DNA from: a virus
Reading direction: 5' to 3' (one strand)
DNA length: 33,455 nt
Virus record (IMG/VR): IMGVR_UViG_3300042691_012985
Span: 1-33,455 of that record
Below the pieces are notes generated by a model. That model did not search any database. It had not been told where the DNA came from and saw nothing but the letters and a program-made list of their open reading frames with translations. The position numbers and the translations under genes were made by a program. The stretch's first letter is position 1, and the number at the start of each line of letters is the position of its first letter. Positions 16,903 to 31,959 of this stretch are shown in pieces.

Positions 16903-16995
16903 TACCTTTGCATTCACATTTCGACCGCACACTTGGGATTTCATTTTTGTAGCTTTGTTTTGTATCGGACCGGGGTTTCTACCTCGGTCTTTTTT
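16903..16995 (+). ncRNA. Short transcription unit C: -7 box to terminator
   Basis: TACCTTTG (16903-16910) fits the Bacteroidota -7 box and lies exactly 76 nt after that of unit B. GACCGGGGT (16968-16976) pairs with ACCTCGGTC (16981-16989), a 9-bp stem with one G-U pair, followed by a T-run. The unit is longer than A and B (93 nt). An RNA of about 75 nt would be non-coding. Confidence 0.45.
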
Positions 16996-17043
16996 ATTTT
17001 CGGCTTTATTTCTAATTTATTTTTTTATGCATATTTGTAAAAA

Positions 17044-17056
17044 ATAAGTTACTTAT
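17044..17056. promoter_or_regulatory. Candidate operator: perfect palindrome ATAAGT-T-ACTTAT
   Basis: ATAAGT (17044-17049), a central T and ACTTAT (17051-17056) form a perfect 13-bp palindrome. It ends four bases before the -33 element of the strong promoter driving the HTH gene. Position and symmetry suit the binding site of a dimeric repressor or activator, most simply the HTH protein itself. Binding is inference. Confidence 0.45.
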
Positions 17057-17059
17057 ATG

Positions 17060-17089
17060 TTTGTTATTTGATAAAAATATGTATATTTG
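17060..17089 (+). promoter_or_regulatory. Bacteroidota-type promoter of the early region
   Basis: TTTG (17060-17063) and TATATTTG (17082-17089) are separated by 18 nt, close to the Bacteroidota -33/-7 arrangement. Transcription should start near 17096, at or next to the ATG at 17094. This is the best promoter in the window and probably reads into the early genes. Confidence 0.75.
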
Positions 17090-17093
17090 CGCC

Positions 17094-17324
17094 ATGACAG
17101 TACCGAAACTAAACCTAATTTTATGGACATCCTTACGGCATCGTGGCGATGCGGAACTGATCGCATCCGGCGCTGGAGTGAGTTATATGACCGTGCATCG
17201 CGCATTCAAAGGATCGGCCAGCCCAAAATTGATAGAGTTCATGAACGAATTTTATACAGAACGCAAAAACAAAACAAAATGCTACATCCCGCAATCATTA
17301 CAGCAAGCCTTGTCGCAGCTCTGA
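17094..17324 (+). CDS. Small HTH regulator (76 aa)
   Basis: Residues 18-40 (RGDAELIASGAGVSYMTVHRAFKG) form a helix-turn-helix of the type seen in small phage regulators, where the second helix reads VSYMTVHRAFKG. The basic region after it ends in a short helical tail. The ATG at 17094 lies only about 5 nt after the -7 box, so the transcript would be leaderless or the real start further downstream (Met at codon 32 would destroy the HTH). A TTG at 17061 lies before the box and is unlikely. The palindrome just upstream suggests autoregulation. It overlaps the next gene by 46 nt. Confidence 0.6.
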   Translation: MTVPKLNLILWTSLRHRGDAELIASGAGVSYMTVHRAFKGSASPKLIEFMNEFYTERKNKTKCYIPQSLQQALSQL

Positions 17325-20035: not shown

Positions 20036-20247
20036 TGCCCGTTAACCCCACCATGCGCCACATCGAGCAATACAAAGCCCAGTGGCTTATAATGGTAGCA
20101 GAGGACCAAGATGGTTACTACGTTCATGCCTTCCACATTCAAACGCTCGATCCTGTATTATTGGAGGCCAGAGGGTTCCCCACCATAGACCACGGAATAG
20201 AGGCGGCACGCAGGGCAGTAGACAGAGAATTAAAAAAAATAGTATGA
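20032..20247 (+). CDS. Hypothetical small protein (71 aa)
   Basis: A small protein with an N-terminal helix (RHIEQYKAQWLIMVAEDQDGY) and a C-terminal helix (DHGIEAARRAVDRELKKIV). The GFPTIDHGIEAA segment resembles a compact alpha/beta domain. No catalytic residues stand out. Its ATG (20032) overlaps the previous TGA, and its TGA (20245-20247) overlaps the ATG of the DNA methyltransferase gene, so it lies in a tightly coupled operon. Function unknown. Confidence 0.5.
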   Translation: MMPVNPTMRHIEQYKAQWLIMVAEDQDGYYVHAFHIQTLDPVLLEARGFPTIDHGIEAARRAVDRELKKIV

Positions 20248-21074
20248 TAATACGAGACCACTTTCAGAACTACAAAGGATACGCTATCCCGAAGGCTCAG
20301 TTAATAATAGCGGATATACCGTACAACTTAGGTAATAATGCCTATGCATCCAACCCATCATGGTATAAAGATGGTGACCTTAATAATGGGGAAAGCGAAT
20401 TAGCCGGGAAATCATTTTTTGATACAGACGAGGACTTCCGGCCGGCAGAGTTCATGCACTTTTGCAGCACTATGTTAAAGGCAGAAAAAAAGCATGAAAA
20501 ACAAGAGGGAGAAAAAAGGCAGAAAAGCGCAGCCCCGTGCATGATTGTATTCTGTGCATTTGATCAGCAAATGTATCTTATTGAACTTGCCAAACGCTAC
20601 GGACTTAAAAATTACATTAACCTTGTTTTTCGGAAAAACTTTTCCGCTCAGGTATTGAAAGCAAATATGAAAGTAGTCGGCAACTGCGAATATGCGCTTA
20701 TACTTTACCGTGAGCGTCTCCCTAAGTTTAATAATAATGGGAAGATGGTATTTAACTGTATGGATTGGCCGCGTGATAATGAGCATGAAAAAATACACCC
20801 TACACAAAAACCCGTGGAATTGCTGGCAAGATTAATCGAATTGTTTACCGATCCGGGTGATGTAGTTATTGATCCAGTTTCTGGAAGTGGCTCAACCTTA
20901 ATAGCTGCGGAACGATTAGGCAGAAAAGCATACGGGTTCGAGATAAAGAAAGATTTCTGGACAAAGGCAAATGCATGGCTTAACGAGGAAAGGCAGGCAA
21001 GGGAGGATATTAAAAACTTTGGATTCGCAAAAAGTAAAATAGAAAAAGATCAGCCGACATTATGGACAAAGTAA
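20244..21074 (+). CDS. DNA methyltransferase, N4/N6 type, with DIPY motif (276 aa)
   Basis: Starting at ATG 20244 (overlapping the previous stop) gives a beta-class amino-methyltransferase order. Catalytic motif IV is IIADIPYNLG, with DIPY at 24-27 in place of the usual DPPY or SPPY. Near the C-terminus are HPTQKPVELLARLIELFTDPGD (about 185-205) and the SAM-binding motif DPVSGSGST (210-218). The enzyme would methylate adenine N6 or cytosine N4, probably to resist restriction. A longer start (20082) reads through the previous gene and is not credible. No restriction partner is visible nearby. The Ile in motif IV is atypical, so activity should not be assumed. Confidence 0.85.
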   Translation: MIIRDHFQNYKGYAIPKAQLIIADIPYNLGNNAYASNPSWYKDGDLNNGESELAGKSFFDTDEDFRPAEFMHFCSTMLKAEKKHEKQEGEKRQKSAAPCMIVFCAFDQQMYLIELAKRYGLKNYINLVFRKNFSAQVLKANMKVVGNCEYALILYRERLPKFNNNGKMVFNCMDWPRDNEHEKIHPTQKPVELLARLIELFTDPGDVVIDPVSGSGSTLIAAERLGRKAYGFEIKKDFWTKANAWLNEERQAREDIKNFGFAKSKIEKDQPTLWTK

Positions 21075-26036: not shown

Positions 26037-28637
26037 ATGAAGGATTTAATCGAAGAACTGAAATACGCTGATGTTAAGGTCATGCCGGTTCTGCACGATG
26101 GCAAGACCATACGGCACATCAAGGAGTACACCACGAAGTTCACGGCAGGGCTGACAGATGAGGAGATGGACTATTGGTTAGGCAAAGGGTATAACGGGCT
26201 GTGTGTATTTATGTCCGCCGCGAATCCCCATCTCAAATGCCTTGACTTCGACGAGAAACACAACGAAGGGCGGCCGATATTCTCCGAATGGGTGAAGATG
26301 ATCGATCCGGCGATTAATGCAAAGCTGGCAGTAGAACGCACCCGATCAAACGGGTACCATGTGTATTTTTTATGCGAGGACAAAGCCAACATCCATAGCA
26401 TCGCAGCCAACAGCACCGGACAGGAAACGATTGCGCTACGTGGTGATAACTTCAACGGCATCACCTACTGCGCTCCCACACCGGGTTATTCTTTCATTCA
26501 GAAGTCACTGGCAGAGCTGGAGACGCTGGGGCTGGATGAGATGATGCAACTGGTAGAGGCGGGCTATACGTTTAACCGATACAGCGGGCGAACCATCACC
26601 TCCTCCGGCGGATTGCTTCGCTACGAAAATTCAAAGTACCCTGATCCGCCCATCAAGTACAAGGCAGTCATGGAGATATTTGACAGGGAAGTGGAGGCAA
26701 TGTTCATCCCGGAACTCCTCGTTCAAATGGGTTGGTCATACAACCAGCGGACACTGGACAGGCCACGGCACAGCAGGGAGATGGGTGAGTTCATCGAAAT
26801 GTACCGGCCGGGAAAAGCAGAGCATGAGAAGGTAACACGCTCGGCATCGTACTACTATGATCGGAAGCGGTTGTCTGTTTACACAGATGACCAGTCCGTA
26901 CTGCTGCCATCCATCAATAACAGCGAGGGGTTGTCCTCCTGGTTATCGCCCTACATGGTGGTGTACTACCTATGCCGGCGGGATTGGGATGCGACCTATG
27001 CAAAGGTGATTGAGATATGCGGCGGCGAGAAAATAGAACTGCCGGAACGGGTGCCGATGGTATATACCATAGCCTTAAAAAATTCGGTTAGGTATTCGGT
27101 CGAGATCAAAGGCATACAGGACTGGGCAATAGATTCCGGGTTCATGTGGATGAAAATGAGTAGTGACGAGGACTCGCCGATGCGACTGGTCAGGGTGGTG
27201 AATCACATCATCTATGATGTGGATGAAACAGACCTACACAAGGCATACATGGAGGAGGTTACACGCACCTATACGGAAGCAGAAGCCCAACGGGTGCTGA
27301 TCACCTTCATGCCGCGCATTATGCAGTACATGACCATCCTCCCGCTATTCAATGGGCAAATTCTCCGGGATAGGGCAGAGGTGGCCTATATCCCGTTCAA
27401 CAATGGCATTCTGGAGGTAAGCAAAAAAGATACCCGATTGCACCGGTACGGGGAGTTGGAGGAGTTTGTTTTCTCGCGCGACATTAAGGACATTGACTAC
27501 ACGCCAACCGGGCATGATGGTAAGTTCACCGAGTTCATCGGCATGATCACTATAGACGAAGGACACCAGCGATTCATCCGCTCTGTGTTCGGGTACCTGC
27601 TGCACACCTACAAGCGCAAATCCTACGCAAAAGCGGTTATGATCATAGAGGATGTGGAGGATCAGGACGAAGCGAGAGGGCGAAGCGGTAAAGGCCTGCT
27701 GGCTCAGTTCATCAAGTGGATTCGCTCAACGGTGGAACAGGATGGCAGGAACTATAAAAGCGATTCACAGTTCAAAATGCAACGGATAAGCCCATGGACA
27801 CAAGTGTTTTATCTGAATGATCCGGGCAACATCGTGATGATGCAGCAATTCTATAACTACATAACAGATGATTTTCTCGTGGAATTGAAGGGAAAAAAGT
27901 CCTATTCCATTCCATTCTCAAAATCCCCTAAAATACTCATTACAACTAACTTTTTGCCCACGCTGGAGAGTGATTCAGACAAGGATAGATTTATAGTGCT
28001 ACCAATCAAAAAAGTATTTTCATCCGGTTTTCGCTTTCAAGATGCCTTTCCGGGACAGGAGTTTTTCGGTGAAAACTGGTCGCAGATTGAGCGAAACGCT
28101 GCCATAAATTATGCGATCGAATGCCTGCAAGAATACCTGCGGCATGGGGTGTATAACTACCAGAATGCACAGATTGAGGCGAATAAAAACAAGCGATTAA
28201 TTCAATCGAAGGTGCCGGAGGGACTGCTGGAGATGCTGGAGCTGGCCATTGAAACGGCTAAAAATAGCCGGGTAATGCATGAATTCGATGCAGGAATTAA
28301 GCCATACGACGGGCTCCCGGATAGCTTAAATTCTCTCGGGAAATGCTTTGAATGGGATGGTGAAATGCTGCGAATTTTCACCCAGCAGGTGTATAAATAC
28401 TGCACGAATTTTTACAAATTGAAGCTGAATGATAAGCACGTCGGAAGGTCAATTCAGTTCTATTTGGGGGCTAAAGGGTACGACTACACTAAGAACCAGA
28501 GCAGGAGTGGCAGGTATTTTTCGGTCAAAATATGTCATCATGAAAACAAGAATGGTATCATGAAGCATCATGAAAAGCATGAACGTCATCATGAAAGTGG
28601 GTGGAAGCCGATTGAATCAGATGGGGACTTATTCTAA
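26037..28637 (+). CDS. Primase-polymerase / SF3 helicase fusion (866 aa)
   Basis: The N-terminal ~180 residues carry the archaeo-eukaryotic primase core: LKCLDFDEKHNE with the metal-binding D70-x-D72, and RSNGYHVYF with His108. A middle linker leads to an SF3/D5-type ATPase: Walker A ARGRSGKGL (548-553), Walker B-like QVFYLND (589-595), sensor 1 LITTNF (635-639) and an Arg in SDKDRFIVLP (651). Such proteins prime and unwind DNA at the phage origin. The C-terminal tail has repeated HHE residues (HHENKN, KHHEKHERHHES), encoded by the first members of the TCATGA repeat cluster downstream. It is the largest gene in the window. Confidence 0.87.
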   Translation: MKDLIEELKYADVKVMPVLHDGKTIRHIKEYTTKFTAGLTDEEMDYWLGKGYNGLCVFMSAANPHLKCLDFDEKHNEGRPIFSEWVKMIDPAINAKLAVERTRSNGYHVYFLCEDKANIHSIAANSTGQETIALRGDNFNGITYCAPTPGYSFIQKSLAELETLGLDEMMQLVEAGYTFNRYSGRTITSSGGLLRYENSKYPDPPIKYKAVMEIFDREVEAMFIPELLVQMGWSYNQRTLDRPRHSREMGEFIEMYRPGKAEHEKVTRSASYYYDRKRLSVYTDDQSVLLPSINNSEGLSSWLSPYMVVYYLCRRDWDATYAKVIEICGGEKIELPERVPMVYTIALKNSVRYSVEIKGIQDWAIDSGFMWMKMSSDEDSPMRLVRVVNHIIYDVDETDLHKAYMEEVTRTYTEAEAQRVLITFMPRIMQYMTILPLFNGQILRDRAEVAYIPFNNGILEVSKKDTRLHRYGELEEFVFSRDIKDIDYTPTGHDGKFTEFIGMITIDEGHQRFIRSVFGYLLHTYKRKSYAKAVMIIEDVEDQDEARGRSGKGLLAQFIKWIRSTVEQDGRNYKSDSQFKMQRISPWTQVFYLNDPGNIVMMQQFYNYITDDFLVELKGKKSYSIPFSKSPKILITTNFLPTLESDSDKDRFIVLPIKKVFSSGFRFQDAFPGQEFFGENWSQIERNAAINYAIECLQEYLRHGVYNYQNAQIEANKNKRLIQSKVPEGLLEMLELAIETAKNSRVMHEFDAGIKPYDGLPDSLNSLGKCFEWDGEMLRIFTQQVYKYCTNFYKLKLNDKHVGRSIQFYLGAKGYDYTKNQSRSGRYFSVKICHHENKNGIMKHHEKHERHHESGWKPIESDGDLF

Positions 28638-28877
28638 TATGTAACATGAAGTTTATGGTAACATCATGAATGTATCATCAAAATTAAAAAGTTCATGACA
28701 ACCATAACTAATTGATTCTCAATACTTTTATTTCTTTTTCTTCTTTCTTTATCATGAAATCATGAAAAATAATAAAAGAAATATAAAATAGAAAAAAGTA
28801 ATAAATATATAGGAAAATAGGGTGTATATATGAAGGAAAAGAAAATTCCGAATTTTCATGATTTCATGATGACATGA
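28538..28877. repeat. TCATGA iteron cluster, candidate replication origin
   Basis: Ten exact TCATGA palindromes start at 28538, 28558, 28568, 28589, 28664, 28693, 28752, 28760, 28856 and 28864, with single-base variants at 28577, 28644 and 28872. Most are ATCATGAA or TTCATGA. The first five lie about 10 bp apart inside the primase C-terminus; the rest lie in a very A/T-rich gap (28638-28873) with a pyrimidine tract followed by a purine-rich run. This pattern resembles initiator-binding iterons plus an unwinding element. Chance would give about 0.1 copies. Confidence 0.72.
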
Positions 28878-29089
28878 TAAAAAAACACAAAATGATCAGA
28901 CAAACAAAAACGAAATTTCAAGCGATCACGCAACTAAAGGTTAAGGTCATCGACCGGAGCGAACCGATGCAGATAGATGAGGCTCGGAAGTATGCCGAGG
29001 AGCAGGCAAGGAAAATGCGGGCCGACCACGATGGCGAATGGTCAGTTTATTTGCAATGTGCTATTTTTGAACAGGATGACCAGAACTGA
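28874..29089 (+). CDS. Small basic-acidic hypothetical protein (71 aa)
   Basis: The ATG at 28874 lies inside the last ACATGA repeat; MIRQTKTKFQAITQLK at 28892 is an alternative start. The C-terminal half has the acidic helix DEARKYAEEQARKMRADHDGEW. No family recognised. Its last 14 nt overlap the sigma-like gene in another frame. It follows the candidate origin directly, so expression may be tied to the origin region. Confidence 0.45.
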   Translation: MIKKHKMIRQTKTKFQAITQLKVKVIDRSEPMQIDEARKYAEEQARKMRADHDGEWSVYLQCAIFEQDDQN

Positions 29090-30689: not shown

Positions 30690-30943
30690 TGGTTCACATT
30701 GATTTCACCGAAACAAAGGGCATAAGCCGGAGGGAGCAGATCATTAAGCAGTACCAGATTACTGCTCGGTGCCTCCAGATCCTTCGTTCTTATGCGAAAG
30801 GGCAAACCGATAAGCAGACAGCGATGGAGTTGGGAGTCGGGCTTACTGCAGTACACAATCAGAAAACAAGGCTCCGGAACAGGATGAATGAGCCATCCAA
30901 TGTATCAATGATTGTGCGCTTGGTCCGGGAGGGCGTGATATGA
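30689..30943 (+). CDS. LuxR/GerE-type HTH protein (84 aa)
   Basis: Residues 28-68 (CLQILRSYAKGQTDKQTAMELGV, then GLTAVHNQKTRLRNRM) match the GerE-type HTH: 'L...A.G.T.K..A..L.....TV..h...l..Km'. It is a stand-alone DNA-binding domain without a receiver. A regulator of late or packaging genes is likely by position, since its stop overlaps the glycosyltransferase ATG (30940) and the terminase genes follow. Targets are unknown. Confidence 0.65.
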   Translation: MVHIDFTETKGISRREQIIKQYQITARCLQILRSYAKGQTDKQTAMELGVGLTAVHNQKTRLRNRMNEPSNVSMIVRLVREGVI

Positions 30944-31959
30944 ATGTGCTGGGGGTAACCAGGCAGAACAGCGCGGTAGGTTACCATCGGATTATGTTAC
31001 CGCTGCACTACATGAAGAAGGAGGGGCTGATCGATGGCCATGTCCGATTGACCGATCAGCTGAATGATGAGGCATTCAAAGGGCATCAGTTCGACATCGT
31101 GGTTATGAACCGGTACGCGGAAGGATACGAACTGGAGCAGGTGCTGGAACTACGCCAGCGGTACGGCTTTCGGTTGGTGGTGGATGCGGATGATTACTGG
31201 CATTTGGATCCTTGGCATATACTTTTTTCAGTGTACCCATCCGAGAAGGTCATCGACCATTTGCAAGCGGCCGACCTCGTCACCTGTACCAATGGACTGC
31301 TGGCCGATGCGATCCGGGAGGAATTGGGCGTTGAGGATGTTCACATACTGCCGAATGGGTTACCCTTCGATGATGACCAGTTTACGGATATCCGAAGCGA
31401 CCAGACAGATCGGACAAGGTTCGTTTATGTGGGTGGCAATACCCATCTGAACGACATTAAGGCCATAGCGGGGGCGATGAAGAAGGTACAAAGTAATTCC
31501 CTGTTCCGGGATGAGGCCAGTATAACGCTGTGCGGTTTTCAGGATCATGAGGTATGGCACCGGATGGCGGTGTATCTGAAAGGTGGGTATTCCGGTAACT
31601 TTGGCATCCAGAAAGGGCTTCCGGTTAGCCAGTACATGAACCTGTACAATGATGCGGATGTGGCACTGGCTCCGCTGGTGGATAGCAAGTTCAATCGGAT
31701 GAAATCGAACCTAAAAGCACTGGAGGCAGCAGCAAAGCGGATACCGTTGATCGCTTCCGATGTGGCACCGTACCAAGGCAGTGAGTACATACTGACCGCT
31801 GTAAATTCTTCCGAATGGTCTATTTACATGAGAGAGATGGTCGATAGTCCGAACTATCGGCAATGGGTAGGCGAGCAACTGGGCAAGGAATGCCGTGAGC
31901 AGTTCGACATTCGGGACATTAACAAAAAACGGGCGGAAGCCTATAAAAGTTTGATATGA
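30940..31959 (+). CDS. GT-B glycosyltransferase, GT4-like (339 aa)
   Basis: An N-terminal Rossmann-like domain starts VTRQNSAVGYHRIMLP (GT4-like beginning) and includes FRLVVDADDYWHL; a second domain has TRFVYVGGNTHLND, then PVSQYMNLYNDADVALAPL and RMKSNLKALEAAAKRIPLIAS with the typical E-x7-like region of GT4 enzymes. It would transfer a sugar from a nucleotide sugar. Substrates in phages include host surface glycans, virion proteins or modified DNA; nothing here decides. Its presence between a regulator and the terminase genes, with stop/start overlaps on both sides, means it is an integral part of the late operon. Confidence 0.8.
   Translation: MNVLGVTRQNSAVGYHRIMLPLHYMKKEGLIDGHVRLTDQLNDEAFKGHQFDIVVMNRYAEGYELEQVLELRQRYGFRLVVDADDYWHLDPWHILFSVYPSEKVIDHLQAADLVTCTNGLLADAIREELGVEDVHILPNGLPFDDDQFTDIRSDQTDRTRFVYVGGNTHLNDIKAIAGAMKKVQSNSLFRDEASITLCGFQDHEVWHRMAVYLKGGYSGNFGIQKGLPVSQYMNLYNDADVALAPLVDSKFNRMKSNLKALEAAAKRIPLIASDVAPYQGSEYILTAVNSSEWSIYMREMVDSPNYRQWVGEQLGKECREQFDIRDINKKRAEAYKSLI

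Follow-up and report, generated by a model that had tools for sequence, protein, structure and literature searches.

A cluster of short repeats at the 3' end of a primase-helicase gene and in the gap behind it (28538–28870) is very probably an iteron-type replication origin, which the adjacent primase-helicase would bind via its C-terminal winged helix. The cluster lies in a viral DNA sequence of 33,455 nucleotides, here called the window. That it is an origin was the original prediction, and sequence comparison with relatives supports it. Related phages keep this layout with another repeat, which apparently suits the DNA-binding end of the primase-helicase that they encode.

The window has no DNA similarity to named phages, and an alignment-based scan of genome contigs yielded no relatives. 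Judging from the phages matched by tblastn, the host group would be Bacteroidota. We regard the window as a fragment, which ends in a terminase gene. A closed circle was considered and rejected: L004, a near-identical relative, runs ~1.2 kb past the window end with no match to the window start. Other genes in the window include a DNA methyltransferase-like gene (phrog_67, 20082–21074) and a glycosyltransferase-like gene (phrog_7162, moron category, 30940–31959), the latter with the origin region on one side and the terminase genes on the other. The cumulative GC skew, proposed originally as a check, does not have its minimum at the site. This is uninformative either way, since the record is incomplete and nearly all of its genes are on the plus strand.

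TCATGA is seen in ten exact copies at 28538, 28558, 28568, 28589, 28664, 28693, 28752, 28760, 28856, and 28864, accompanied by near-copies such as GCATGA at 28577 and ACATGA within the gap. The segment 28528–28887 contains all 10, against a mean of 0.62 and a maximum of 5 in 2000 dinucleotide-preserving shuffles. The cluster noted originally is thereby confirmed. Among repeated 7-mers scanned across the whole window, the top cluster is TCATGAA at ~28501 (score 10.1; the runner-up scores 7.6). There are 17 copies of TCATGA in the whole window where 11.6 are expected, and the 7 copies outside the cluster are close to the chance level. The gap behind the primase-helicase gene was described as A/T-rich, and it is indeed 22% GC in a window of 48% GC. 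The lowest-GC 200 bp of the window (28629–28828, 20.5% GC) falls inside the repeat cluster. Another very AT-rich spot is present at 16931–17130 (11.9% GC over 84 bp at 17005), and none of the five top repeat clusters of the window is located there.

The copies can be oriented by their flanking letters, as ATCATGAA, i.e., (A)TCATGA(A). The plus orientation is found in the four in-gene copies and those at 28664, 28752, and 28760, and the minus orientation in those at 28693, 28856, and 28864. The left array (28538–28594, plus strand) lies in the coding tail and consists of the copies at 28538, 28558, 28568, and 28589 and the near-copy at 28577. The steps between the exact in-gene copies are 20, 10, and 21 bp, with the near-copy inside the last (20, 10, 9, and 12 when it is included), and the exact copies are thus about whole helical turns apart. 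The middle repeats (28664–28698, plus strand) are one plus copy at 28664 and one minus copy at 28693. Between them and the core is a small inverted repeat of 13 bp, ATTGA-TTC-TCAAT (28711–28723), which occurs once in the window with 0.03 expected. The core has a left arm of two plus-oriented repeats 8 bp apart (28751–28768, plus strand, ATCATGAAATCATGAAAA) and a right arm of two minus-oriented repeats 8 bp apart (28853–28870, minus strand, TTTTCATGATTTCATGAT). The two arms form an 18-bp perfect inverted repeat, whose paired copies surround an AT-rich spacer of 84 bp (28769–28852, 19% GC), the putative unwinding element. Single-strand folding of the site gives a z of -2.6.

Relatives were collected by IMG/VR scans: L004 (100%), L005 (73–74%), clade B (~57%; L015–L021 and L025), and clade C (43–46%; L006–L010 and L022–L024). 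All 17 loci that reach the 3' end of the gene have one dominant repeat there. It is TCATGA in the window, L004, and L005 (clade A), TGATGGC in L015–L021 and L025, and TGCACT in L006–L009 and L022–L024. Absence of the repeats from close relatives would have spoken against an origin; they are present in the closest ones, L004, L055, and L005. The layout is common to the clades. Copies in the coding tail are followed by TTGR-NNN-YCAA (in most loci), further copies, an AT-rich stretch, and then two or three inverted copies 8–9 bp apart. In 13 of 14 loci, the clade's own repeat makes up the longest inverted repeat that encloses the spacer, with arms of 8–18 bp and a spacer of 64–103 bp at 15–22% GC; L023 is the exception. 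In all three clades, most loci space their coding copies by 10, 11, 20, or 21 bp; L005 also has spacings off the helical phase (27 and 45 bp). The form TTGR-NNN-YCAA lies between the repeats in most relatives, whatever their repeat sequence. ATTGA-NNN-TCAAT at 28711–28723 is of this similar form, which is kept while the flanking repeats switch among clades.

Scans with the repeat strings themselves suggest that dense repeat clusters belong to the primase-helicase gene. Among 2.9 million IMG/VR viral contigs, the paired TCATGA core is seen only in the L004 contig and L055, both with this gene. The TTTGATGGCTTTGATGGC scan yielded 54 contigs, and all 11 of them with a dense TGATGG cluster have it next to a gene of clade B. 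With the clade C string, two clade C contigs were found, and seven others that lack both a dense cluster and this gene. Being seeded with the repeats, these scans show that dense clusters accompany this gene, not the number of other origins. Inspection of L012, L013, and L014, which have partial similarity in the helicase, showed no obvious cluster of repeats behind the gene.

The position relative to the terminase genes bears on another explanation, that the repeats mark a site for packaging (pac or cos) followed by those genes. Terminase-like genes start ~1 kb downstream in L005 and the clade C loci, as such a site would have it. The window cluster does not lie in or at terminase genes: 3.3 kb separate it from that of the small subunit (at 31956), and the repeats are still at the primase. 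The repeats of the Bacteroides phage BT-TP2 family (see below) likewise come after the primase gene, and neither an AT-rich spacer nor covariation with a primase-helicase is expected for pac or cos. A packaging site is thus highly improbable.

The proposed initiator is a protein of 866 aa (26037–28637, plus strand), identified by its ORF, an AlphaFold2 model, Foldseek, and PHROG. The gene ends with HHENKNGIMKHHEKHERHHESGWKPIESDGDLF, and its stop is at 28637. The protein matches phrog_28855 (6e-33, function unknown) and, weakly, phrog_19930 (polymerase/primase). It has nothing above the cut-off in Pfam or NCBIfam, and an HMM profile finds no match in PDB sequences. The predicted domains are a pRN1-like prim-pol (residues ~1–180) and a D5-like SF3 helicase (~500–660), followed by a helical region, a winged helix (777–831), and a disordered tail (835–866). 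The full-length model was built with 18 sequences (mean pLDDT 67.7) and has its lowest confidence in the helicase. Its best PDB match by Foldseek is the prim-pol of pRN1 ORF904 (1rni), followed by D5-type helicases (pox E5/D5 and ASFV); the SaPI5 primase-helicase (7ola) is borderline with an E of 0.001. Residues 777–831 (codons at 28365–28529, plus strand) take a strand-helix-helix-hairpin fold in both the full-length and the domain model, the latter with pLDDT mostly 85–93, and by this predicted topology they are a winged helix, the proposed repeat-reading domain. A Foldseek search with this domain gave nothing significant, the P4 alpha origin-binding domain (1ka8) being among the weak matches (E 0.39). 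Residues 835–866, encoded by the repeat-bearing DNA, have pLDDT below 50.

The winged helix appears to diverge selectively where the repeat differs. Between clades A and B, the identity is 63% in the prim-pol, 80% in the SF3 helicase, 44% in the helical region, and 23% in the winged helix. Between C1 and C3, which have the same repeat, the values are 61%, 80%, 54%, and 48%, respectively. Within clade A, the winged helix is 61% and the helical region 58% identical. This covariation is suggestive and not statistically established, because independent switches of the repeat are few.

The covariation also bears on the possibility that the repeats are operators, either of a regulator of the downstream genes or for autoregulation of the primase, with the AT-rich stretch as the promoter region. 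The right pair (28856–28869) is immediately upstream of the next ORF, whose ATG is at 28874, and in most loci of clades B and C the pair is ~30–45 bp upstream of the next ORF. At least 10 copies over 330 bp, partly coding and symmetric around an AT-rich spacer, are nevertheless beyond what is usual for operators. The next gene differs between the window and L005 while the repeats are unchanged, and it is the winged helix of the primase-helicase with which the repeat sequence covaries. Operators are therefore an unlikely explanation, although dual use for origin and regulation is possible.

More distant phages offer another look at the same relationship. Bacteroides phage BT-TP2 gp6 was matched by tblastn with ~30% identity in the helicase, and its relatives came from an IMG/VR scan. 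The repeats of this family are GTTACAAA, GTCACAAA, or ATCACAAA, located 200–1200 bp after the gene. When helicase identity is matched, same-repeat and different-repeat pairs of this family cannot be told apart by the mean identity of their winged helices. Two mosaic proteins, L050 and L044, have a helicase, an N-terminus, and a winged helix with different nearest relatives, and only these two are informative on covariation within the family. The SF3 helicase of L050 is 91–95% like that of GTTACAAA phages, and its repeat is ATCACAAA. Its winged helix (53–55%) and N-terminus (~70%) are like those of the GTCACAAA group. The repeat of L050 thus seems to follow the winged helix and the N-terminus, not the helicase, and the N-terminus tracks it equally well. 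L044 is 91–99% identical to L042 in the N-terminus and the SF3 helicase and 58% in the winged helix, and the repeats of L044 are degenerate.

The C-terminus of the primase was described earlier as HHE-rich. The tail is indeed rich in His and Glu. It could be imagined that the in-gene copies reflect such a protein feature, perhaps a metal-binding tail, and that the copies in the gap are chance occurrences in AT-rich DNA. The composition of the window protein is in line with this, but chance does not account for 10 copies when shuffles reach 5 at most. The tails of the window and L005 are 25% identical, and both genes carry the repeats. The tail peptides of the other clades are unrelated and come with another DNA repeat; the in-gene TGATGGC copies of clade B are read alternately in two frames, as LMA and as DG. 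A functional tail is hence barely credible as the explanation. Most likely the HHE richness is incidental to the DNA repeats, since the C-terminus is a low-confidence, disordered stretch behind the winged helix and its peptide changes completely among relatives while the DNA repeat stays. The two frames of the TGATGGC copies, the clade-specific tails, and the predicted disorder together indicate that the repeats act as DNA, not as peptide. The 3' end of the gene would be free to hold repeats because the last ~30 residues of the protein are unconstrained.

Both the primase-helicase and a small downstream protein had been proposed to read the repeats. Comparison of relatives favors the former. 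The small protein, of 71 aa (28874–29089, plus strand), is encoded directly after the origin and has no Pfam family above the cut-off. It is undetectable in L005 and the other relatives searched, and only the near-identical L004 has it. As L005 has the same TCATGA repeats, the 71-aa protein is an unlikely reader. A different candidate for a separate reader is suggested by genes for stand-alone DnaA domain-IV-like (Bac_DnaA_C) proteins, which adjoin the repeats just past the origin in L005 (8836–9231), L008 (5660–6106), L019 (8855–9244), and L022 (9037–9501); such proteins are also in the L018 and L025 records. In the window, this place is occupied by the 71-aa protein together with one that weakly resembles sigma region 4. 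A DnaA-like protein encoded with the origin, as in DnaA-dependent origins, is thus present in some relatives and not detected in the 33-kb window, although the window has TCATGA repeats as L005 does. Bac_DnaA_C was not found in six BT-TP2 family records either, which may be fragments. With these absences and that of the 71-aa protein from L005, an origin read by a separate protein of either kind is very unlikely. An alternative site of action for the DnaA-like protein might be the conserved TTGR-NNN-YCAA element.

Reading by the primase-helicase itself is the most likely explanation. From the repeats and their spacing, the inverted core, the AT-rich spacer, the conservation of the layout, the replacement of the repeats, and the covariation of the winged helix, we infer origin function with binding, melting, and priming as follows. 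The winged helix of the primase-helicase encoded upstream would bind the oriented (A)TCATGA(A). The helically phased copies in the 3' end of the gene, with those in the gap, would concentrate the initiator. The two inverted pairs of copies would load helicase to the left and right of the 84-bp spacer, which the SF3 helicase would melt, and the prim-pol would prime.

Several known systems resemble this arrangement. SaPI Rep uses its C-terminal domain to read iterons that immediately follow its gene, and Cch2 does likewise in vitro (PMC7581432). SaPI Rep and SCCmec Cch2 have a D5-type helicase as the initiator and an origin of short iterons right behind the helicase gene, as is proposed for the window. 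The repeat sequences differ from those of SaPIs, the window repeats extend into the 3' end of the gene, its prim-pol matches pRN1 best, and its genome is that of a phage, not a satellite. P4 alpha combines a primase, a helicase, and a winged-helix origin-binding domain in one protein and binds origin repeats (PMC4234260). Its primase is of the TOPRIM type (PMC4234260), whereas the window protein has an archaeo-eukaryotic-type prim-pol by structure match, and the match of the window winged helix to P4 alpha (1ka8) is not significant. As in origins of the P4 and SaPI kind, short repeats are clustered at the initiator gene and flank an AT-rich region, here the spacer between the inverted pairs. 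The proposed initiator has a predicted helicase and a predicted winged helix, which may read the repeats, judging from covariation.

The pRN1 ORF904 and phage BIP-1 proteins have a prim-pol, an SF3 helicase, and a C-terminal winged helix, with the origin directly downstream (PMC4234260). The window protein has the same combination by model and Foldseek, the helicase with modest confidence. The pRN1 origin is reported as a stem-loop with a 21-nt stem and a 58-nt loop, without iteron structure, and it has been proposed that prim-pol/SF3/winged-helix proteins recognize a downstream stem-loop rather than iterons (PMC4234260). In contrast, the 18-bp inverted arms of the window are made of iterons, which are also present outside the arms; they could pass for a stem. 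By analogy, the site would work like P4 and SaPI origins, and what would be new is the presence of iterons with a pRN1-type initiator. A literature search on iteron origins in Bacteroides/Bacteroidetes phages found nothing relevant.

It can be speculated, with some doubt, that these loci are a matched series of initiators and origins, in which the winged helix and about ten repeats change together within a fixed architecture, and that the stem-loops proposed for pRN1-type replication proteins may be inverted iteron pairs. The three-way switch of the repeat would be a natural data set on how an initiator and its dozen scattered binding sites acquire a new specificity jointly. It is also relevant to the question of which of the two, a stem-loop or iterons, is required by pRN1-type initiators. 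For a phage group with almost no annotation, the cluster offers a specific, small, and testable origin, and origins in related metagenomic phages would become findable.
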